Of a DNA stretch of 64,000 nucleotides, positions 12,601 to 52,873 are shown piece by piece. Location of the stretch: assembly GCF_029392675.1 (NCBI RefSeq), contig NZ_CP113941.1:794001-858000 (forward strand), written 5' to 3'. The translations under genes and the position numbers were made by a program. The stretch is from Lactobacillus sp. ESL0684 (GTDB lineage: Bacteria; Bacillota; Bacilli; Lactobacillales; Lactobacillaceae). The notes under the pieces were generated by a model. That model saw nothing but the letters and a program-made list of their open reading frames with translations. It was not told where the DNA came from and did no database searches. Numbering within the stretch: position 1 is the first letter of the stretch; each line of letters starts with the position of its first letter.

Positions 12601-13976
12601 TTATCCGTGTAATGTTTGGTCCAGACAATTCCTATCGAGCAGGAACAATTGCGACTGTTGCCGACAAGACTGCATATGGTTACGCTAAGCATTATGATGA
12701 GGAAAAAGAATTAAATTTGCGTGGTGCTGAGCTTGACCGGTTAGCAGCTGGAGTTAGTGGGGTAAAACGCACCACGGGACAGCATCCTGCTGGAATTGTG
12801 GTGGTTCCTGATGATATGGATATTTACGACTTTACGCCTGTCCAATATCCAGCTGATGATGTGAATGCAGCTTGGCAAACGACCCACTTTGATTTCCATT
12901 CGATTCATGATAATATTCTTAAGTTTGATATTTTGGGGCATGATGATCCGACCATGATTCGTATGCTGCAAGACCTATCTGGAGTTGATCCTTTAACGAT
13001 CCCGCCAGATGATCCAGGAGTAATGTCCTTATTTTCTAGTCCTAAAATTTTAGGAGTCACTCCTGAACAGATTCAATCTAAGACTGGTACACTTGGTGTG
13101 CCGGAATTTGGAACTAGGTTTGTTAGGGGGATGCTTGAGGAAACTAAGCCAACTACTTTTTCTGAATTGTTACAGATTTCTGGACTATCACATGGAACCG
13201 ACGTTTGGCTAGGAAATGCGGAAGAATTAATTGATAATGGAACTTGCAAATTAAAAGATGTAATTGGTTGTCGTGATAATATTATGATGGACTTAATTCA
13301 CTGGGGTGTTAAGCCAGAGGTGGCTTTTTCAACAATGGAATCTGTGCGTCATGGCCGCGGAATTAGTGATGATGACATGGCTGTTTTAGCTAAAAATGAT
13401 CAAATTCCTGATTGGTATATTGATTCATGTTTGAAGATTAAATATATGTTTCCTAAGGCTCACGCGACAGCCTATATTTTGATGGCACTAAGAATTGCTT
13501 GGTTTAAAGTTTACTATCCAGAAATTTATTACACTGCCTATTTTTCTGTGCGGGCAAGCTTATTTGACTTAGTAGCAATGAGTCATGGTAAAAATACCGT
13601 CAAAAAGGCAATGGCTGATTTGCAAAAGTTAGGCAATGATGCTTCTGCTAAGGATAAGGGCTTATTGACAGTTTTGGAAATTGCTAATGAATGTTTGGAA
13701 CGAGGCATCAAAATAAAAATGGTTGATCTTAATCAATCGGAAGCTACTAATTTCAAGATTATTGATCAGCATACTATTTTAGCGCCATTCAATGCGGTTC
13801 CTGGATTAGGGAATAACGCAGCCAAGCAAATTGTTGCGGCCAGAGCCGAGCAAGCTTTCTTATCTAAAGAGGATTTAGCAACTCGGGGCAAGGTTTCACA
13901 GACAATTATGGATTACTTGGATGAAAATGGTGTTTTGGAAGGGATGCCTGACCAAAACCAACTTTCCTTATTTTAA
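9672..13976 (+). CDS. polC: DNA polymerase III alpha subunit, Gram-positive PolC type
   Basis: The 1434-aa replicative polymerase has an OB-fold near 230-320, a PHP domain starting at RAELHLHTNMSQLD (about 330), an inserted DEDD 3'-5' exonuclease starting at VIFDVETTGLS (about 416), a CXXC...CXXC zinc-binding patch (CPKCKYSK and CPECGTE, about 905-940), and the polymerase active-site aspartates in PDIDLNFSGDYQ (about 957-968). The start is GTG at 9672, six bases after the proS stop. Length is typical of PolC. It ends the uppS-polC run. Confidence 0.97.
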   Translation: MTNKNKLFLRLLEQIHFPKQFADNEILQQGEIENVDVYAKEHRWDIHVLFATPLKFETYQALNEAITTSFASFVDTQLFVRSQDGADDYLTSYWHYAVQNAEFLQTVAREFIASHQPKKEQERWIIPVDNLVVDGLIEQKMLDQLAEKMRDFGFFNLKFVTQMDENNSQSNLESLQQLQEAHEQTMQEAYNATPPKKPQAQSYPTKKTRYGSRKLDQSLPITQIDDIADGARNVVIEGNIFNTDMRELKSGAIIFTGEITDYTNSVAFKKFVANKDQIASISDLKSGTWAKMQGSVADDQWSHDLVFNISSFEIVEHVGRKEEYTGEKKRAELHLHTNMSQLDATNNATDFILTAKKFGQKAIAITDHADVQAFPEAYEAGKKNDIKIVYGVEANMIDDHALLVLNPASMTYRDQEFVIFDVETTGLSSVYDTMIEIGAVKMKNGEVLERFDKFINPHHPLSEQTINLTSITDEMVTAADDEAVVIKQFQDFYGDRPLCGHNVQFDVGFVNAALRRASLSEITQPVVDTLEVSRLLHPEQTRHTLDSLAKKYNVVLEHHHRANQDAEATGYLMFKLLEAFTKRFNEDDLGKMNDYAVQGQVYKRARPTHMTILAKTQAGLKNMYRLVSIANTTNFYRIPRTPKSELAKYHEGLLYGSGCSEGDVFVAMMQKGYDEARKKARFYDYLEVQPPKSYAQLIEDHLITDEAELQEILTNIYKLGQELHKPVVATGDAHYVEEHDAIYRKILISAQRSNPARNDPQPDQHFYSTQEMLDEFSFLGEEIAKEIVITNPNKIAASVEELAPIKDGLYPPHIDNADEEMKQLTYDEAYALYGNPLPKIVQDRLEMELNSIISNGYAVIYLISQRLVAKSNKDGYLVGSRGSVGSSLVATMSGITEVNPLAPHYRCPKCKYSKFFENGEYGSGYDLPDQKCPECGTELVKDGQDIPFATFLGFHGDKVPDIDLNFSGDYQPVAHNFIRVMFGPDNSYRAGTIATVADKTAYGYAKHYDEEKELNLRGAELDRLAAGVSGVKRTTGQHPAGIVVVPDDMDIYDFTPVQYPADDVNAAWQTTHFDFHSIHDNILKFDILGHDDPTMIRMLQDLSGVDPLTIPPDDPGVMSLFSSPKILGVTPEQIQSKTGTLGVPEFGTRFVRGMLEETKPTTFSELLQISGLSHGTDVWLGNAEELIDNGTCKLKDVIGCRDNIMMDLIHWGVKPEVAFSTMESVRHGRGISDDDMAVLAKNDQIPDWYIDSCLKIKYMFPKAHATAYILMALRIAWFKVYYPEIYYTAYFSVRASLFDLVAMSHGKNTVKKAMADLQKLGNDASAKDKGLLTVLEIANECLERGIKIKMVDLNQSEATNFKIIDQHTILAPFNAVPGLGNNAAKQIVAARAEQAFLSKEDLATRGKVSQTIMDYLDENGVLEGMPDQNQLSLF

Positions 13977-39170: not shown

Positions 39171-40988
39171 AGTGTCTGGGAAAAATTAACTCTTCAGACT
39201 TAAAAACAGACCAAGTTTTCGTAATAAGAAAATCTTGATCTGTTTTTTATTGCTTATTTCCTGTAAAAGAAGTTTTCCGCCACCTCTTCTACTCCAATAT
39301 TTGCTCAAATTCATCATCATGAACATCAAGCCTACATCGGTTTCGACCTTTTTCTTCCCTCGCAAGTGTGTTCTGCGCACACCAAAAACGTTCTTCATAT
39401 GTCCAAAGACTGGCTCTACGTCCGTTTTTCTATAGCTATAGATCAGTTTGCCTTCGCTACTTTGAAGAGTTTGTTTAGCTTTTGCCTTTAAATATTGCCA
39501 ATTGGGGTTGTATTGCACCTGCCTTTGGCGTCCGCTTTTAGTTTTGGCTAGCTCAGTTAATTCAGCTGTTAACTGAAACTCATCTGCTTCATATATTTTT
39601 AGATCAGAGATTAACCCCGTACTCTTATTCCTCCGCTTACCATACCGTTTGAAATTAAAACGCACACCTTGCCAGTCAAGGTAATAATCTTCTTGCTCAT
39701 TATAAGTCCAATTCGCCAGCTTGGTGGGATCATTTTGATACTTTCTAGTCTGCTCCTTATCGTAAAGGCTGTAAGGAATAAAATATTGTTTATCTTCATA
39801 CTCATTTTCAAGCATAGAATAATTATATTCGCTGCCATAGCCGGCATCGGCAACGATGTTCTGGAACTTGTCTAAATTTGTCATTTGCTTTAAGAAAGGT
39901 TCTAAAGTCTTGAAGTCTGTTGGATTAGGGTAAAGTGCATAATCTACTACATATTGGTTGGTAGTTGCCACTTGAATATTATATCCGGGTTTAAGCTGAC
40001 CATTCCTCATATGATCTTCTTTCATATGCATAAAAGTGGCATCATGATCGGTCTTTGAGTAGCTATTACGCTCACCAAAAGTTGCTTGCGCCTGTTCATA
40101 CTTTTCTGCTCTGGGGATAAAATCCTGACGCAACTTATGCAAGACTCTTTTAAGGCCTCGCCTTTGGCGTTTTTTAGTTGAACCTCCAGGAATTACTTTC
40201 GGCTCAGCCGCGATTGCTTCATCTAGTTGCTTGATGACAGTTTCTGTTTGTTCTGCCATGATTGCCAGACCCTGACTAGTTTGTGCTTCTTCTTCAGTAA
40301 TCGCTTGGATTACTTCTTTTTGAATTAATTCATCATAAAGCTCAACTGCATTAGCCTTTAACTTAGTATGAAACTTTTCGACAGCTCTTTTCCAAACGAA
40401 AGTATACTTGTTAGCATCAGCTTCAATTTTAGTCCCATCAATAAAGATAGCATCTTCTCTAAGCAACCCTTCTGCTTGCAAAAGATTAGTAAAATAGACA
40501 AAAGCTTGTTTAATCAGCTGATTGGTATGGCTACTAGCTCTAAAGTTATTGATCGTATGATATGAAATATGTTTACCACCAGCTATGACCATCATCGGGA
40601 GGTTTTCTGTGAGCATCCGCTCAATTTTTCTACCAGAGAAAACGCGTCTAGAATAGGCAAAGAGTAGTATTTTGAGCATCATTGCTGGGTGATAGGCAGG
40701 CCGACCAGTATTTGAATTGTCTTCCAGCAACACATCGGCAGGAATCGAGTCGACAAAATCACTGATAACCTGAGCAAGATGATTTTTAGGAATAGAAAAG
40801 TCAAAGTTGAGTGTTAAAGCAGTTTGACCTGTGATATAATTTTGATACATGAAAAGCCCACCTTTTTTGTTTTTTGTAGTAATTTAATAATAACAAGGTT
40901 AGGCTAGAATGTATATGAAAAATCCGCTAGAACGCAAAGATTCTAACGGATTTTTTGCTTTTAAGGGTCTAGTTTTTTCCCAGACACT
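39171..40988 (-). mobile_element. IS1182-family insertion sequence, copy 1
   Basis: A 1818-bp element with terminal inverted repeats beginning AGTGTCTGGGAAAAA at both ends (39171-39185 and the complement at 40974-40988), flanked by A/T runs that hide the exact border. A single transposase gene occupies the minus strand. Terminator-like hairpins lie at both ends (about 39207-39246, and ATCCGcTAGAA/TTCTAaCGGAT around 40921-40953), which would insulate it from outside transcription. No clear target duplication is visible. A near-identical copy of the same length and orientation lies at 48138-49955. It sits between a GNAT stop and the P-ATPase stop, without breaking either. Confidence 0.9.
39186..40850 (-). 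CDS. IS1182-family transposase (copy 1)
   Basis: A 554-aa DDE transposase. The N-terminal DUF772-type region begins MYQNYITGQTALTLNFDFSI and includes NTGRPAYHPAMMLKILLFAY; the catalytic domain shows FIDGTKIEADANKYTF, NIVADAGYGSEYNY and the C-terminal GHMKNVFGVRRTHLRG block. It looks intact. Compared with copy 2 it ends LLRKLGLFLSLKS because of a one-base difference near the 3' end. RBS AAAGGTGG precedes its ATG on the minus strand. Confidence 0.93.
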   Translation of the reverse strand: MYQNYITGQTALTLNFDFSIPKNHLAQVISDFVDSIPADVLLEDNSNTGRPAYHPAMMLKILLFAYSRRVFSGRKIERMLTENLPMMVIAGGKHISYHTINNFRASSHTNQLIKQAFVYFTNLLQAEGLLREDAIFIDGTKIEADANKYTFVWKRAVEKFHTKLKANAVELYDELIQKEVIQAITEEEAQTSQGLAIMAEQTETVIKQLDEAIAAEPKVIPGGSTKKRQRRGLKRVLHKLRQDFIPRAEKYEQAQATFGERNSYSKTDHDATFMHMKEDHMRNGQLKPGYNIQVATTNQYVVDYALYPNPTDFKTLEPFLKQMTNLDKFQNIVADAGYGSEYNYSMLENEYEDKQYFIPYSLYDKEQTRKYQNDPTKLANWTYNEQEDYYLDWQGVRFNFKRYGKRRNKSTGLISDLKIYEADEFQLTAELTELAKTKSGRQRQVQYNPNWQYLKAKAKQTLQSSEGKLIYSYRKTDVEPVFGHMKNVFGVRRTHLRGKKKVETDVGLMFMMMNLSKYWSRRGGGKLLLQEISNKKQIKIFLLRKLGLFLSLKS

Positions 40989-46341: not shown

Positions 46342-46477
46342 ATCACTACCTAGAAATAAATATTTAAGTTAATTTTACCAGCATGTAGGCAAATACGGTT
46401 ATCGCTTAAAGCTGGTCTTGAGCAAAATTTAAGAAATTACTGGGATCAATTAAATGATGGATTGGAAGAAAATAGCA

Positions 46478-46888
46478 ATGAAATTTCAATTTAAGCAAGA
46501 AAACCAGTTGACACAGGCTGATTTATTTATGTTATATAACTCAGTTGGGTGGACCTCTTATACTAAGGATTTGGCAAAACTGCAACGAGCTGTTGCAAAT
46601 TCACAGGCAGTGATCACGGTTTGGCTGCGAGCCGAATTGGTAGGGTTAATTCGAACAATTGGCGATCAAGAAACTATCCTGTATATTGAAAATTTGCTAG
46701 TGAAGCCTGAATACCAACATCAAGGTTTGGGGACAGAGCTAATTCAGCAAGTTCTAAAAAGGAATAGTGGAATTAGACAGGTTGTTTTACTAACTGATAA
46801 TACGGTTAAGACACGCGCGTTTTATGAAAAGCAGGGACTAACAAATATTGATAAACTTGGAATAGTGGCGTTTTATCAGGAATATTAG
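46478..46888 (+). CDS. GNAT family N-acetyltransferase
   Basis: A 136-aa GNAT with the acetyl-CoA loop LLVKPEYQHQGLGTELIQQ and a C-terminal AFYEKQGL strand, common in small GNATs. I start at ATG 46478, nine bases after GGAAG, rather than the in-frame ATG at 46454. Substrate unknown. It is the last ordinary chromosomal gene before the accessory island. Confidence 0.8.
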   Translation: MKFQFKQENQLTQADLFMLYNSVGWTSYTKDLAKLQRAVANSQAVITVWLRAELVGLIRTIGDQETILYIENLLVKPEYQHQGLGTELIQQVLKRNSGIRQVVLLTDNTVKTRAFYEKQGLTNIDKLGIVAFYQEY

Positions 46889-47120
46889 CTGTATAGTACT
46901 TAACCAATAAAAAGAAAGGCAGGAGTTTAGCTAGTTTTTGGAAAATATATTTTAGGATAGACCTGCAAGTAGAAACAGTGAATTTTTTAAGGCGCTGAGG
47001 TAGAAAAAGAAGCTTGATTTTTCGTTGATTATACGGAATAATGTAGTCGTTGAAATATGAACTCATAAAAAATTAGTGTTTTTCTTTTTAAGAATCTTGT
47101 TATAACAAGGATTTTTTACT
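46889..47120 (+). other. Gene-poor stretch and leader of the CRISPR remnant
   Basis: No convincing gene is seen. The last 25 bases before the first repeat form a hairpin (AATCTTG 47093-47099 with CAAGGATT 47106-47113) and end TTTTTTACT. This resembles the TCTTTTACT that precedes the large array at 51356, so it is read as a leader. Confidence 0.4.
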
Positions 47121-47270
47121 GTATTCCCACGCAAGTGGGGGTGATCCCCTGAAAGACAGTATATCAGTATACCTTGATATGTATTCCCCACGCAAGTGGG
47201 GGTGATCCTTTCGATTGATACTTGAATCAAAATTTTCTCTCGTATTTCCCACGGATGTGGAGAATTTATT
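47121..47270 (+). CRISPR. CRISPR remnant, three repeats and two spacers
   Basis: Repeats at 47121-47147 (27 nt, one C missing), 47181-47208 (28 nt, full) and a degenerate one at about 47242-47270. Both spacers are 33 nt (47148-47180, 47209-47241). The repeat is of the GTATTCCCCACG / GTGGGGGTGATCC type, as in lactobacillus type I-E systems, with CGCAAG in the loop rather than the CGTATG of the large array. The degenerate last repeat marks the trailer end, so the leader is on the left. No cas gene is in the window. Confidence 0.85.
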
Positions 47271-47416
47271 ACGAGTAGAACAGACACTATTGATAAAACA
47301 TGAATGATTTGTTTTCTGTATGTTGGGATTAGACTAAAATAATTTATATAGCAATAATTTTATATAGATAGTTAGATTTTTTATAAAGTTAGCTGGAAAA
47401 AAAGATTAAGTTATAG

Positions 47417-47422
47417 TATAAT
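47417..47422 (+). promoter_or_regulatory. -10 element of tRNA-Ser
   Basis: TATAAT 12 bp before the tRNA; no good -35 is seen. Confidence 0.4.
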
Positions 47423-47434
47423 TTCTTATGTTCT

Positions 47435-47523
47435 GGAGAGTTGGCAGAGTGGTAATGCACCGGACTCGAAATCCGGCGAACCAAGTTTTCCTTGGCGCGC
47501 AGGTTCAAATCCTGTACTCTCCT
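47435..47523 (+). tRNA. tRNA-Ser(CGA)
   Basis: The acceptor arms GGAGAGT and ACTCTCC (47516-47522) pair. The anticodon stem CCGGA/TCCGG encloses the loop CTCGAAA, with anticodon CGA at 47467-47469 reading UCG. A long variable arm (CCAAG..CTTGG), as expected for serine tRNAs, and the GGTTCAAAT T-loop are present. CCA is not encoded. Confidence 0.95.
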
Positions 47524-47660
47524 TAAATATATCCTGATAAATGCTTATGTAGCAGCATTTTATGACTAGACCGCACGCCAAGCTATCAACGTTTTTGATG
47601 ATATATGGACTAAATTTTGACTAAACAACCCAGCTAAATTAACAGCTGGGTTGATTTTGA
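47524..47660 (+). other. Possible decayed integrase 3' end and terminator next to the tRNA
   Basis: In one frame, after a stop, TARQAINVFDDIWTKF ends at TGA (47619-47621). This resembles the C-terminal tail of phage-type tyrosine recombinases, which often sit beside tRNA genes. A hairpin CAACCCAGCT 47626-47635 with AGCTGGGTTG 47644-47653 follows. The integrase reading is tentative. Confidence 0.3.
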
Positions 47661-47776
47661 AGTAAGTATAAACCTTTCACAATGTGATTATCTAAATTGT
47701 GCTTTAATTCGTTTGATAGATGTAAATTTAGACAATACTCAATGTTCTATATGTAATTTTTGATTAAAGGTGGATT

Positions 47777-48130
47777 ATGTTGAAAGATAAAAATGTTTTA
47801 GCATATCCAATTATTTTGTATCCAGAAGAGCAAGTCGGTTATAGCGTAGAAATTCCAGATATTGGCGGAGGAACCTAGGCTCTTGGTGCCATGCTAGTTA
47901 GTGAAACTAGTTATCCTACTCCAGCGCCTATCAAAGAAGTTGATGTATCGGAAAATGAAGTTAAAACAATTGCTTCAGTTGATATGAATAAGTATCGCAA
48001 GCTAAACGAAAAAACTATTCGTAAGACTATTTCGATACCAGAGTATCTGGTTGAACTAGGTAAAGAACAACAGATTAACTTTTCAAAGACTTTGACAGAA
48101 GCATTAGAAAAGCAGTTATTAGCAAAGTAA
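47777..48130 (+). pseudogene. Broken hicB-type antitoxin gene
   Basis: RBS AAAGGTGG precedes ATG 47777, and 33 codons read MLKDKNVLAYPIILYPEEQV and GYSVEIPDIGGGT, the beta-rich N-terminus of a HicB antitoxin. The frame hits TAG at 47876-47878 and then continues unshifted with LGAMLVSETSYPTPAPIKEV to a RHH-like C-terminus (KTISIPEYLVELGKEQ). Compared with the family, about 15-20 residues between the GGG and LGAML segments are also missing, so both a deletion and a nonsense change are likely. A C-terminal piece could still be translated from ATG 47891. No hicA is next to it. IS1182 copy 2 starts 7 bp after its stop. Confidence 0.75.
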
Positions 48131-48137
48131 AAGAATA

Positions 48138-49955
48138 AGTGTCTGGGAAAAAACTAACTCTTCAGACTTAAAAACAGACCAAGTTTTCGTAATAGAAAAT
48201 CTTGATCTGTTTTTTGTTGCTTATTTCCTGTAAAAGAAGTTTTCCGCCACCTCTTCTACTCCAATATTTGCTCAAATTCATCATCATGAACATCAAGCCT
48301 ACATCGGTTTCGACCTTTTTCTTCCCTCGCAAATGTGTTCTGCGCACACCAAAAACGTTCTTCATATGTCCAAAGACTGGCTCTACGTCCGTTTTTCTAT
48401 AACCATAAATCCGTTTGCCTTTGTCACTTTGAAGAGTTTGTTTAGCTTTTTCCTTTAAATATTGCCAATTGGGGTTGTATTGCACCTGCCTTTGGCGTCC
48501 GCTCTTAGTTTTGGCTAGCTCAGTCAATTCAGCGGTTAATTGAAACTCATCTGCTTCATATATTTTTAGATCAGAGACTAACCCCGTACTCTTATTCCTC
48601 CGCTTACCATAACGTTTGAAATTAAAACGCACACCTTGCCAGTCAAGGTAATAATCTGCTTGCTCATTATAGGTCCAATTCGCCAGCTTGGTCGGATCAT
48701 TTTGATACTTTCTAGTCTGCTCCTTATCGTAAAGACTGTATGGAATAAAATATTGTTTATCCTCATACTCATTTTCAAGCATAGAATAATTATATTCGCT
48801 GCCATAGCCGGCATCGGCAACGATGTTCTGGAACTTGTCTAAAATTGTCATTTGCTTTAAGAAAGGTTCTAAAGTCTTGAAGTCTGTTGGATTAGGATAA
48901 AGTGCATAATCTACTACATATTGGTTGGTAGTTGCCACTTGAATATTATATCCGGGTTTGAGCTGACCATTCCTCATATGATCTTCTTTCATATGCATAA
49001 AAGTGGCATCATGATCAGTCTTGGAGTAGCTATTACGCTCACCAAAAGTTGCTTGCGCCTGTTCATACTTTTCTGCTCTGGGGATAAAATCCTGACGCAA
49101 CTTATGCAAGACTTTTTTAAGGCCTCGCCTTTGGCGTTTTTTAGTTGAACCTCCAGGAATTACTTTCGGCTCAGCCGCGATTGCTTCATCTAGTTGCTTG
49201 ATGGCAGTTTCTGTTTGTTCTGCCATGATTGCCAGACCCTGACTAGTTTGTGCTTCTTCTTCAGTAATCGCTTGGATTACTTCTTTTTGAATCAATTCGT
49301 CATAAAGCTCAACTGCATTAGCCTTTAACTTAGTATGAAACTTTTCGACAGCTCTTTTCCAAACGAAAGTATACTTGTTAGCATCAGCTTCAATTTTGGT
49401 CCCATCAATAAAGATGGCATCTTCTCTAAGCAACCCTTCTGCTTGCAAAAGATTAGTAAAATAGACAAAAGCTTGTTTAATCAGCTGATTGGTATGGCTA
49501 CTAGCTCTAAAGTTATTGATCGTATGATATGAAATATGTTTACCACTAGCTATGACCATCATCGGGAGGTTTTCTGTGAGCATCCGCTCAATTTTTCTAC
49601 CAGAGAAAACGCGTCTAGAGTAGGCAAAGAGTAGTATTTTGAGCATCATTGCTGGGTGATAGGCAGGTCGACCAGTATTTGAATTGTCTTCCAGCAGCAC
49701 ATCGGCAGGAATCGAGTCGACAAAATCACTGATAACCTGAGCAAGATGATTTTTAGGAATAGAAAAGTCAAAGTTGAGTGTTAAAGCAGTTTGACCTGTG
49801 ATATAATTTTGATACATGAAAAGCCCACCTTTTTTGTTTTTTGTAGTAATTTAATAATAACAAGGTTAGGCTAGAATGTATATGAAAAATCCGCTAGAAC
49901 GCAAAGGTTCTAACGGATTTTTTGCTTTTAAGGGTCTAGTTTTTTCCCAGACACT
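48138..49955 (-). mobile_element. IS1182-family insertion sequence, copy 2
   Basis: The same 1818-bp length, inverted repeats (AGTGTCTGGG at 48138-48147 and its complement at 49946-49955) and orientation as the element at 39171-40988, differing only by scattered substitutions and small indels. It has landed just after the hicB pseudogene. Flanking A/T runs obscure any target duplication. The two copies enclose 7.1 kb containing the P-ATPase, eno and tRNA-Ser. Confidence 0.9.
48168..49817 (-). CDS. IS1182-family transposase (copy 2)
   Basis: A 549-aa protein, almost identical to the copy at 39186. It differs by a handful of residues (for example VIASGKH instead of VIAGGKH) and by its last residues (FYYENLVCF), caused by one base less near 48190. 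All the DDE-family blocks (FIDGTKIEADA, VADAGYGSEYNY, GHMKNVFGVRRTHL) are present, so it may still be active. Confidence 0.92.
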   Translation of the reverse strand: MYQNYITGQTALTLNFDFSIPKNHLAQVISDFVDSIPADVLLEDNSNTGRPAYHPAMMLKILLFAYSRRVFSGRKIERMLTENLPMMVIASGKHISYHTINNFRASSHTNQLIKQAFVYFTNLLQAEGLLREDAIFIDGTKIEADANKYTFVWKRAVEKFHTKLKANAVELYDELIQKEVIQAITEEEAQTSQGLAIMAEQTETAIKQLDEAIAAEPKVIPGGSTKKRQRRGLKKVLHKLRQDFIPRAEKYEQAQATFGERNSYSKTDHDATFMHMKEDHMRNGQLKPGYNIQVATTNQYVVDYALYPNPTDFKTLEPFLKQMTILDKFQNIVADAGYGSEYNYSMLENEYEDKQYFIPYSLYDKEQTRKYQNDPTKLANWTYNEQADYYLDWQGVRFNFKRYGKRRNKSTGLVSDLKIYEADEFQLTAELTELAKTKSGRQRQVQYNPNWQYLKEKAKQTLQSDKGKRIYGYRKTDVEPVFGHMKNVFGVRRTHLRGKKKVETDVGLMFMMMNLSKYWSRRGGGKLLLQEISNKKQIKIFYYENLVCF

Positions 49956-50312
49956 TTTTAATTTAGGTAGATTTTTGGTTGAGAAAAGCTAGAGATTTAG
50001 TAGAGAACAGGTGGAGGTATATTATGGTATTGTCGAAAGATTGGGAAACTCTCAATTAATCGACACATCGTTCAACAGATCAATTTTGCCGCCACTATTA
50101 GTATATTTGCTTCCTGGGTAGTGGCTAAGATTTGGCCTAATATTTTTGCAATATAAGAATAGTATTTTTACACCAAATCTGGGATATTATTGCTTATTAA
50201 TCACAAAAATCAAATTATTTTTCATTTAAATTTCGAATATACATGATTAAACATGTATGATATATTTATTGATTGAGAGACCAGCAATCTACAAACGGGG
50301 AGGAGAAACCTC
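49956..50312 (+). other. Intergenic accessory stretch with an IS end fragment
   Basis: No convincing gene is seen; a short open stretch (NFAATISIFASWVVAKIWPN) lacks a start and may be debris. At about 50176-50204, TGGGATATTATTGCTTATTA then ATCACAA closely matches the right end of the IS1202-type element at 55490-55541, so this is a solo end. An inverted repeat ATACATG 50239-50245 / CATGTAT 50252-50258 lies in the promoter region of the next peptide. Confidence 0.5.
50238..50266 (+). promoter_or_regulatory. Possible promoter with embedded palindrome for the 50313 peptide
   Basis: TATACA 50238-50243, a 17-bp spacer and TATATT 50261-50266. The spacer is occupied by ATACATG-N6-CATGTAT, which could be an operator. 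The -35 is weak (4 of 6). Confidence 0.35.
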
Positions 50313-50396
50313 ATGACTCGCCGAGAGTACCGCAAGGCAAAAAAGCTCACCCTTGCGGGAATCGCAAGTCTATTGCTTCATTTGTTCGGTTTGTAG
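50313..50396 (+). CDS. 27-aa basic-hydrophobic peptide, candidate type I toxin
   Basis: ATG 50313 lies seven bases after a strong GGAGGAG. The peptide is MTRREYRKAKKLTLAG then IASLLLHLFGL: a basic head and a hydrophobic helix. The RNA is unusually foldable. GAGG 50300-50303 pairs with CCTC 50309-50312, hiding the RBS; CTACAAAC 50289-50296 pairs with GTTTGTAG 50389-50396, closing the message end to end; CCTTGCGG 50351-50358 can pair either with CCGCAAGG 50330-50337 or, in part, with CGCAAG 50363-50368. These are habits of type I toxin mRNAs. I do not recognise the family, and it could instead be a structured RNA with a chance ORF. Confidence 0.5.
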   Translation: MTRREYRKAKKLTLAGIASLLLHLFGL

Positions 50397-50402
50397 TAAT
50401 AG

Positions 50403-50435
50403 ACAAAGGGATAAGCTGAGTCTTGTCCTTTTGTC
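50403..50435 (+). terminator. Hairpin after the 27-aa peptide
   Basis: ACAAAGGGATAAG 50403-50415 pairs with CTTGTCCTTTTGT 50422-50434, with small mismatches and only a short T tract. It could terminate transcription in either direction, including an antisense RNA. Confidence 0.5.
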
Positions 50436-50467
50436 ATAAGTATAGCAGATTTATGAGAGGTTTCAAA

Positions 50468-50575
50468 ATGAAAAAATTGAATAATATTTTGACTATCGTA
50501 AATTTTATTCTAAATTTGATAATAATTGTTTTAGCTGTTTTAGTTATAGGGAAGGATTTTTGGGGGTGGTTTTAA
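50468..50575 (+). CDS. 35-aa single-span membrane peptide
   Basis: The frame reads MKKLNNILTIVNFILNLIII then VLAVLVIGKDFWGWF, with GAGAGG eight bases upstream. One hydrophobic segment fills most of the peptide and it ends in an aromatic patch. Family not recognised. It lies directly after the structured 27-aa locus and overlaps the broken gene that follows, so it belongs to the same small-gene cluster. Toxin, holin-like or regulatory roles are possible. Confidence 0.45.
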   Translation: MKKLNNILTIVNFILNLIIIVLAVLVIGKDFWGWF

Positions 50576-50747
50576 GCAAGGCACGTCAAAAAGCAGATGC
50601 AAAATATAAGAAAACACATCCTAAAGTAGCAAAAACAGTATCGTATAGGTCAACAACTAAAAGCTTTATTAAAATTATTCCAATGTTGCTGACTTAGATA
50701 ATTTAGAAGAATTAATTGCTACAAGACGAAAAGAATTAGAAAAATAG
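50566..50747 (+). pseudogene. Small phage-like gene disrupted by a frameshift
   Basis: From GTG 50566 the frame reads MVLSKARQKADAKYKKTHPK then VAKTVSYRSTTKSFIKI and then stops at TAG. One base out of frame, NYSNVADLDNLEELIATRRK then ELEK continues to TAG 50745-50747. The join needs one extra A in the AAA run near 50675. The KSFI-nnn-DL-ELI...RKKEL pattern is seen in small phage and mobile-element proteins. Function unknown. Confidence 0.5.
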
Positions 50748-50890
50748 TATTATAAAAATGCACATATCAAAAGAGCGCAAATTATTTTAAACACATCAAA
50801 GTAATAGTTTCATGCACTTGTGAGAATTCCTGAGGGGCTTTGAAAAAGCAGCTTTGTTTGATATATTCTTAAAACAGGAGAGGTATTAAA

Positions 50891-51172
50891 ATGTCGTATA
50901 AATATTTTGGCACACTATTACATAACGTTGAAGATAAAGTTTGGGAAGTAAAATTTGATGACTTTCCTGAAGCAATGACTTTTGGTGAAACTCCTGTTGA
51001 GGCATACAAATATGGCAAAGATGTACTAATATTGGCTTTAGATGGTAGAAAAAACTTTCCTAAGCCAACTGAATTCAAAAAGCATATTGATTTTAACAGT
51101 TCAGAATACGATGAAGCTTTTCAGTTGCCATTTGAAGTAACCAAGGCTGAAATTGAAAGTATAGTCAAGTAA
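50891..51172 (+). CDS. HicB-family antitoxin-like protein (orphan)
   Basis: A 93-aa protein MSYKYFGTLLHNVEDKVWEV followed by KFDDFPEAMTFGETPVEAYK, which matches the HicB_like antitoxin fold (partial RNase H-like, with the FPEAMTFGETPVEA signature). AGGAGAGG precedes the ATG. HicB normally pairs with a small HicA mRNA interferase; none is found on either side, so this is solitary. It lies just upstream of the large CRISPR array. Confidence 0.75.
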   Translation: MSYKYFGTLLHNVEDKVWEVKFDDFPEAMTFGETPVEAYKYGKDVLILALDGRKNFPKPTEFKKHIDFNSSEYDEAFQLPFEVTKAEIESIVK

Positions 51173-51356
51173 AAATGAAATTTGTTAAAGGATGTTAAAG
51201 TAGCTAAAAAGAATTGTATATTATATTTAAAAATAAAAGCTTGTTTAACTTGCTTAAATAGATAATATCTTGCAAAATATAAGCAGTGAAGTATAAACTA
51301 ATGAATTTTGTGTATCTCTTTGATTAGCAATGTTGATATGACGGTAATCTTTTACT
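51173..51356 (+). other. AT-rich leader of the CRISPR array
   Basis: This 184-bp AT-rich stretch without a gene ends TTGATATGACGG..TCTTTTACT at the first repeat. The end is similar to that in front of the small array (TTGTTATAACAAGG..TTTTTTACT), supporting a leader on this side. Confidence 0.55.
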
Positions 51357-52056
51357 GTATTCCCCACGTATGTGGGGGTGATCCCTTTAAAATAGCCAGT
51401 TAATCCAATTCCAATAGGTATTCCCCACGTATGTGGGGGTGATCCTACAAGCGATGATAAGGACTTAGCAAACCTTAAGTATTCCCCACGTATGTGGGGG
51501 TGATCCTTGTAAACACTATTTATAATGGTGCGCCTTATTGTATTCCCCACGTATGTGGGGGTGATCCACTTATCAATATAACGAAAAAGATGGTTATAAT
51601 GTATTCCCCACGTATGTGGGGGTGATCCTATCAGTAAGATATGGGAACAGAAAGACGAAGCGTATTCCCCACGTATGTGGGGGTGATCCCGTGATCCCTT
51701 GGGCGTTTGAAAGCACGCCGTTGTTATTCCCCACGTATGTGGGGGTGATCCTACAAGCGATGATAAGGACTTAGCAAACCTTAAGTATTCCCCACGTATG
51801 TGGGGGTGATCCTTGTAAACACTATTTATAATGGTGCGCCTTATTGTATTCCCCACGTATGTGGGGGTGATCCCGTGATCCCTTGGGCGTTTGAAAGCAC
51901 GCCGTTGTTATTCCCCACGTATGTGGGGGTGATCCTGTAATATCAGTATCTGTCTTTTGGTATCTGGTGTATTCCCCACGTATGTGGGGTGATCCAATAA
52001 GGGTAAAAAAGCGGTTGGCGAGGATTCTGTATTCCCCACGGATATGAGGCTAATTT
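51357..52056 (+). CRISPR. CRISPR array, 12 repeats and 11 spacers, type I-E-like repeat, no cas genes nearby
   Basis: The repeat is 28 nt, GTATTCCCCACGTATG then TGGGGGTGATCC, with a CCCCAC/GTGGGG palindrome. Repeats start at 51357, 51418, 51479, 51540, 51601, 51662, 51723 (29 nt, extra T), 51785, 51846, 51907 (29 nt, same extra T), 51969 (27 nt, one G lost) and 52029 (degenerate trailer). All spacers are 33 nt. Numbering S1-S11 from the left, S2=S7, S3=S8 and S6=S9, so only eight are unique. The degenerate last repeat puts the leader on the left. No cas gene is in the window. Confidence 0.97.
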
Positions 52057-52159
52057 ATTCTTTCCAAAAATAATTTATTAGAAGCAATTTAAAATAACTA
52101 AAACAAATGGTATCATAGTGAATGGTTTTTAAATCGTTAACATAGATAGGGGAGAATAA

Positions 52160-52873
52160 ATGAAAATACAACCAAATACTGATGTTTTCAAGCCTGCATG
52201 GTATGTTCACCAAATGCGAGGCTGGAGCTTCAAAACGTATATATTGCTGATGTTTGGCATTGGCGTGATTGTGGGGACAACAATTTCCGCACCGATTACG
52301 TTAATGACTTTTGTAACAATGCTTGCTGCAGTGCTGGGTTTCACTTGTACTCTGGCTATTACCAATGCTAAGCCATTAAACGGAGTGCTTGGATTATTAT
52401 CGGCATTGATATATATTGTGGTTGCTATTAATGCGCGAAATTATGCGGATGTAGTTTTGCAAACATCATATATCTTTTTATTAGATTTACCAGTATTACT
52501 GATGCCAGCTTGGTCAAAGGATGCAGAAAGTCATATTCATGGTTTAACTGCTCCTAAGTGGTTGTTGACTTTGACGTTTTTTGTTATAGTTACCGGCATG
52601 CTTTACTTAATGGATACAAAAGTATTTATTAGTCCGCGTCCGTGGATCGATGCAATTTCTGGTTCTATTGGTATTACGGGTTCATTACTATGTACTTTAC
52701 GGTTCCGTGAACAATATTATTTCTGGACAATTCAAGGAGTTATGTCAATTATTTTATGGGGCATAACTGCAATGCAGGGCGATGCTAACTTAACTTTATT
52801 CTTTACTTATATCTTATATTTAAGTAATGATTTATTAGCGTTTACTGATAAGCATACTCATTGGTTCCATTAA
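52160..52873 (+). CDS. pnuC: PnuC-family nicotinamide riboside transporter
   Basis: A 237-aa integral membrane protein with about seven hydrophobic helices and the PnuC hallmarks FREQYYFWTIQGVMSIILW in the C-terminal half and a charged end (FTDKHTHWFH). It imports NAD precursors, probably nicotinamide riboside, as lactobacilli depend on such salvage. GGGGAG precedes ATG 52160. It stands alone, ending at a bidirectional terminator. No nadR kinase or riboswitch is visible. Confidence 0.82.
   Translation: MKIQPNTDVFKPAWYVHQMRGWSFKTYILLMFGIGVIVGTTISAPITLMTFVTMLAAVLGFTCTLAITNAKPLNGVLGLLSALIYIVVAINARNYADVVLQTSYIFLLDLPVLLMPAWSKDAESHIHGLTAPKWLLTLTFFVIVTGMLYLMDTKVFISPRPWIDAISGSIGITGSLLCTLRFREQYYFWTIQGVMSIILWGITAMQGDANLTLFFTYILYLSNDLLAFTDKHTHWFH

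Follow-up and report, generated by a model that had tools for sequence, protein, structure and literature searches.

Duplication of a spacer block, and probable later loss of part of one copy, in a type I-E CRISPR array

The array and its surroundings

The window analyzed here, a stretch of 64,000 nucleotides, comprises bases 794001–858000 of an assembly made up of a single contig of 1.889 Mb. Direct reading of window positions 51357–52049 gave a type I-E CRISPR array in which 12 repeats alternate with 11 spacers (Table 1). As in other members of this class, partly palindromic repeats of 28–29 nt are evenly spaced by spacers of 32–33 nt; here the repeat, GTATTCCCCACGTATGTGGGGGTGATCC, is 28 nt and the spacers are 33 nt. 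Exact matches to a 27-mer of the repeat numbered 10 at 51358–51935, as compared with 0 expected from shuffled sequence. The array has a leader on one side and a degenerate repeat on the other. The leader was placed on the left because the sequence preceding R1 is found again ahead of the cas-linked array of the genome (where the leader end, AATGTTGATATGACTGGGATCTTTTACT, is nearly the same), because the repeat at the right end is degenerate, and because the protospacer matched by S5 is flanked by AA on its 5' side. The sequence before a third array of the genome resembles the leader end at R1 more loosely. Two other features were considered and set aside: the boundary between R6 and S6 carries an 8-nt tandem, GTGATCCC, which we attribute to chance, S6 being of normal length (33 nt), and a 200-aa open frame on the minus strand (51254–51856) is no gene but the reverse reading of the array and leader.

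Table 1. Features of the type I-E array, in window coordinates
Feature	Position	Strand	Basis or remark
Leader end, ...AATGTTGATATGACGGTAATCTTTTACT adjoining R1	51290–51356 (left limit approximate)	+	Similar sequence before other arrays
R1-S1-R2, leader-proximal unit, S1 unique	51357–51445	+	Direct reading
S2-R3-S3, first copy	51446–51539	+	S2, S3 identical to copies in 51752–51845
S4-R5-S5, in first copy only	51568–51661	+	S5 = 51629–51661
S6 and R7 (29 nt, extra T), duplication junction: S6 side joined to S2 side	51690–51751	+	
S2-R8-S3, second copy	51752–51845	+	Identity of spacer copies
R9-S6-R10 (R10 29 nt, extra T), second copy, no S4-S5 before it	51846–51935	+	100% identical to 51662–51751
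S10-R11-S11, oldest spacers; R11 27 nt, one G short	51936–52028	+	
Degenerate terminal repeat (GTATTCCCCACGGATATGAGG...)	52029–52049	+	Direct reading

To the right of the array lies pnuC (52160–52873), whose protein is closest to those of Lactobacillus sp. ESL0679 and ESL0701 (83–84%), followed by L. bombicola and L. apis; given these nearest relatives, a bee-associated Lactobacillus is the most likely host. The two nearest species have no arrays and carry a tRNA-Ser gene, pointing the opposite way, about 0.2 kb or less from pnuC. Here, the same flanks are separated by about 5.7 kb (46437–52154) that contains two arrays, small genes, and an IS transposase. Because tRNA-Ser adjoins pnuC without arrays in those two species, the array is not ancestral at the site in them, and none of 42 loci of related species carried an array around pnuC.

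Several neighboring features were recorded in passing. A second array in the window, with two spacers (47121–47260), has a related repeat with a CGCAAG loop and lies 4 kb left of the large array. A small HicB-like protein (50891–51172; a weak match, below the cut-off, at E = 0.0018) adjoins the large array, and a small HicB-like protein (L010 7428–7718) also adjoins the cas-linked array. Two DDE transposases on the minus strand (39186–40850 and 48168–49817) have the same pattern of Pfam matches and are probably copies of one IS.

The cas genes

The genome contains cognate cas genes: a type I-E operon, with its own small array, is located at about 1.762–1.772 Mb, about 0.9 Mb away from the array described here. 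The repeat of the cas-linked array is the same as that in the window except for GTG in place of GTA. Pfam matches were obtained for Cas6e, Cas5, Cas7 (CT1975), Cse2, Cse1, and Cas2 (CT1978). The first five of these frames are open, as is that of Cas2, which is fused to a DEDDh exonuclease domain. The gene cas3 was assigned by place and length only, as a 926-residue open frame at the expected position.

The only type I-E cas1 of the genome (C1:1763115–1763918) has an in-frame TAG at codon 83, a codon for Trp in 22 relatives. Cas1 is uninterrupted in all 23 other genus genomes scoring above the family cut-off. An acquisition-competent I-E system carries an uninterrupted cas1, and the gene as assembled is interrupted; a sequencing error is possible. 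If the stop is real, spacer uptake has probably been lost and interference may still work. Rearrangement of the array is not lost with cas1.

Spacer targets

One spacer, S5, matched foreign DNA beside a putative PAM. The match, at 32/33 positions, was to the plasmid NZ_CP113944.1 (53.6 kb), carried by the stingless-bee isolate Lactobacillus sp. ESL0681, and the 5' flank of the protospacer reads GAAA. Every sixth position is tolerated by I-E interference. The single mismatch falls at base 19 of 33, which becomes position 18, one of these positions, when the first base is regarded as PAM-derived. Given the 32/33 match beside AA, the array probably holds real plasmid memory.

The other spacers of the array had no match in the sequence sets searched. 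For the duplicated spacers S2, S3, and S6, no target was found in phages or plasmids, in IMG/VR (exact 22–24-mers), or in 75 genus genomes (≤3 mismatches). At ≤3 mismatches, these spacers match only their array copies in their own genome, with no self-targeting, and are absent from the other 74 genus genomes, which matched the array at repeat-level identity only. A Leuconostoc phage match that ran across two spacers (E = 1) was discarded as chance, as were weak phage matches for a second array.

The duplicated block and its history

Direct reading bears out the spacer order given in the first-pass annotation, S1 S2 S3 S4 S5 S6 S2 S3 S6 S10 S11, and its span for the rearranged region, 51418–51935, begins with the first base of R2 and ends with the last base of R10. 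The two copies of S2 are identical to the letter, as are the two copies of S3. The 91-nt stretch R6-S6-R7 (51662–51752) equals 51846–51936 at 100%. An extra T (GTTATTCC...), already remarked upon after both copies of S6, is found in R7 and R10 only among the repeats of the array. The chance that any two among 11 unrelated random 33-mers would be identical is about 1e-18. Within a single array, identical spacers thus recur in unchanged order, the mark of a spacer block duplication.

The history of the block was reconstructed in reverse through tandem duplications and deletions of blocks, with missing blocks of ≤4 units, containing unknown spacers, allowed. By this enumeration of duplications and deletions, no single event yields the observed order. 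Histories of two events lead back to exactly one ancestor in which all spacers are unique, S1 S2 S3 S4 S5 S6 S10 S11; the two events are a tandem duplication of S2–S6 and then a deletion of S4–S5 in the second copy. The annotation had offered two readings: that one block was copied and then lost S4–S5, or that the longer version gained them. The former is favored, as it starts from the sole two-event ancestor, and the latter is set aside, as it requires two consecutive insertions in mid-array.

We therefore favor, with a probability of roughly 80%, a tandem duplication of S2–S6 through misalignment of repeats, followed by deletion of S4–S5 between repeats in the second copy. Against it stands the fact that none of the other 74 genus genomes showed the ancestral array. 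The reconstructed order of events would be as follows. An extra T arose beside S6 before the duplication, since it marks S6 in both copies, and was copied along with that spacer. The five-unit block S2–S6 was then duplicated in tandem when identical 28-nt repeats misaligned, whether by replication slippage or by unequal exchange; the exchange that formed the S6/S2 junction would have lain to the right of the T in R7. The second copy would later have lost two units, S4–S5, between its internal repeats. The copies are without any substitution; therefore, either the duplication is recent or the copies have been kept alike, two possibilities that are indistinguishable here. The likely consequence is a doubling of the crRNA templates for S2, S3, and S6. 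The crRNA 5' handle should be unaltered by the T, which follows S6 on its 3' side and is not part of the repeat hairpin. Recombination between repeats, proposed at the outset as the origin of the duplication, is supported as the best account.

The same final order would result if an array that had already lost S4–S5 took part in a single unequal exchange with a sister array; these are the same two events in the opposite order, and the sequence alone fits either order. Arrays with and without the deletion would, however, have to share a cell or be exchanged, and recombination between CRISPR arrays is reported as rare where PMC11472070 cites Kupczok et al.; we consider this course unlikely. An assembly artefact, with tandem units mis-joined, is very unlikely. 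Units of 61 bp are difficult for short reads, but the loss of precisely S4–S5 from one copy is not what simple collapse or expansion would produce, and the single-contig genome suggests that long reads were used. Some systems show ectopic integration at internal repeats, which would allow an ancestral S2 S3 S6 to have been duplicated and S4–S5 to have been acquired later inside the first copy. That reading is highly improbable: besides the two mid-array insertions in succession, it runs against uptake at the leader end, which is the rule (PMC8047081), and against the present interruption of cas1. A second, independent acquisition of S2, S3, and S6 in the same order was rejected, since letters, order, and extra T are all identical, and re-acquisition is unlikely now given the interrupted cas1.

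Conceivably, the duplication postdates the loss of cas1 in a lineage whose interference module is still open, repeat exchange is now the sole source of change in the memory, and the extra S2, S3, and S6 were kept for crRNA dose, a scenario we regard as quite doubtful. The order of duplication and stop, once fixed in this sense, would show remodelling of memory without acquisition.

Repeated spacers and repeat drift in other arrays

Arrays of the genus were selected by resemblance of their repeats to that of the array in the window and were read with an automatic parser (edit distance ≤4). Repeated spacers were present in 10 of the 43 arrays read (722 spacers). The repeats in these 10 arrays were mostly of single spacers, with blocks as well (e.g., 13 14 13 14 13 14). 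A second array of the genome reads ...A B A B A C at its trailer end (L009 reverse strand 13586–13951), a history similar in kind to that of the array in the window and a point in favor of the preferred account. In the SpacerPlacer study, 805 of 24,090 spacers (3.3%) were duplication candidates, 86% of them simple duplications, and 171 of 333 array groups were without a candidate, leaving about half with one (PMC11472070). The view in the first-pass annotation that duplications are rarer than acquisition agrees with the per-spacer count. Per array, repeated spacers are common, as both our survey and about half of the published groups attest.

The longest array of the genome (C1:1161083–1162270; L009 reverse strand 12731–13952) was observed to have a drifting repeat. 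Its G run lengthens toward the leader, from G5 in the 12 oldest units through G6 in three to G7 in the five newest, one G7 unit having a further T deletion. The repeat nevertheless remains 28 nt, its 3' end being cut back from TGATCC through TGATC to TGAT. At 62 nt (a 29-nt repeat plus 33), the oldest G6 unit agrees with a repeat that first gained a G and was afterwards copied by a ruler of fixed length; the oldest G7 unit is without an extra base. Such a ruler for type I repeats was demonstrated using engineered repeats (Goren 2016, as cited in PMC6895254), and the array looks like a natural record of it. The G-run drift was absent from all other arrays read, and the drifting repeat is more unusual than the duplicated spacer block.

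Comparison with known systems

The system resembles type I-E CRISPR-Cas of Lactobacillus in its open frames for cas3 (by place and length), cse1, cse2, cas7, cas5, cas6e, and cas2-DEDDh, in its 28-nt repeat and 33-nt spacer, and in having a cas-linked array whose leader end and repeat are almost identical. It differs in the TAG at codon 83 of cas1 and in the remoteness of the array from the cas genes.

Repeated blocks have been put down to misalignment or recombination between repeats (PMC8047081; PMC11472070); a review presumes that they are duplications, proposes these routes, and notes that direct data on mechanism are still needed (PMC8047081). The duplication described here is an ordinary, well-documented rearrangement between CRISPR repeats. 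Existing knowledge is unchanged by it, and the duplicated array should be useful as a strain marker. Its marker base and unique two-event history make it a clear example of array remodelling by repeat exchange. Like the known block duplications (PMC8047081, PMC11472070), it repeats contiguous spacers in order at an internal site, with a conserved trailer end and whole repeats at the junctions. Nothing essential differs; what is particular to this array is that the second copy is without S4–S5 and that the marker T orders the events.
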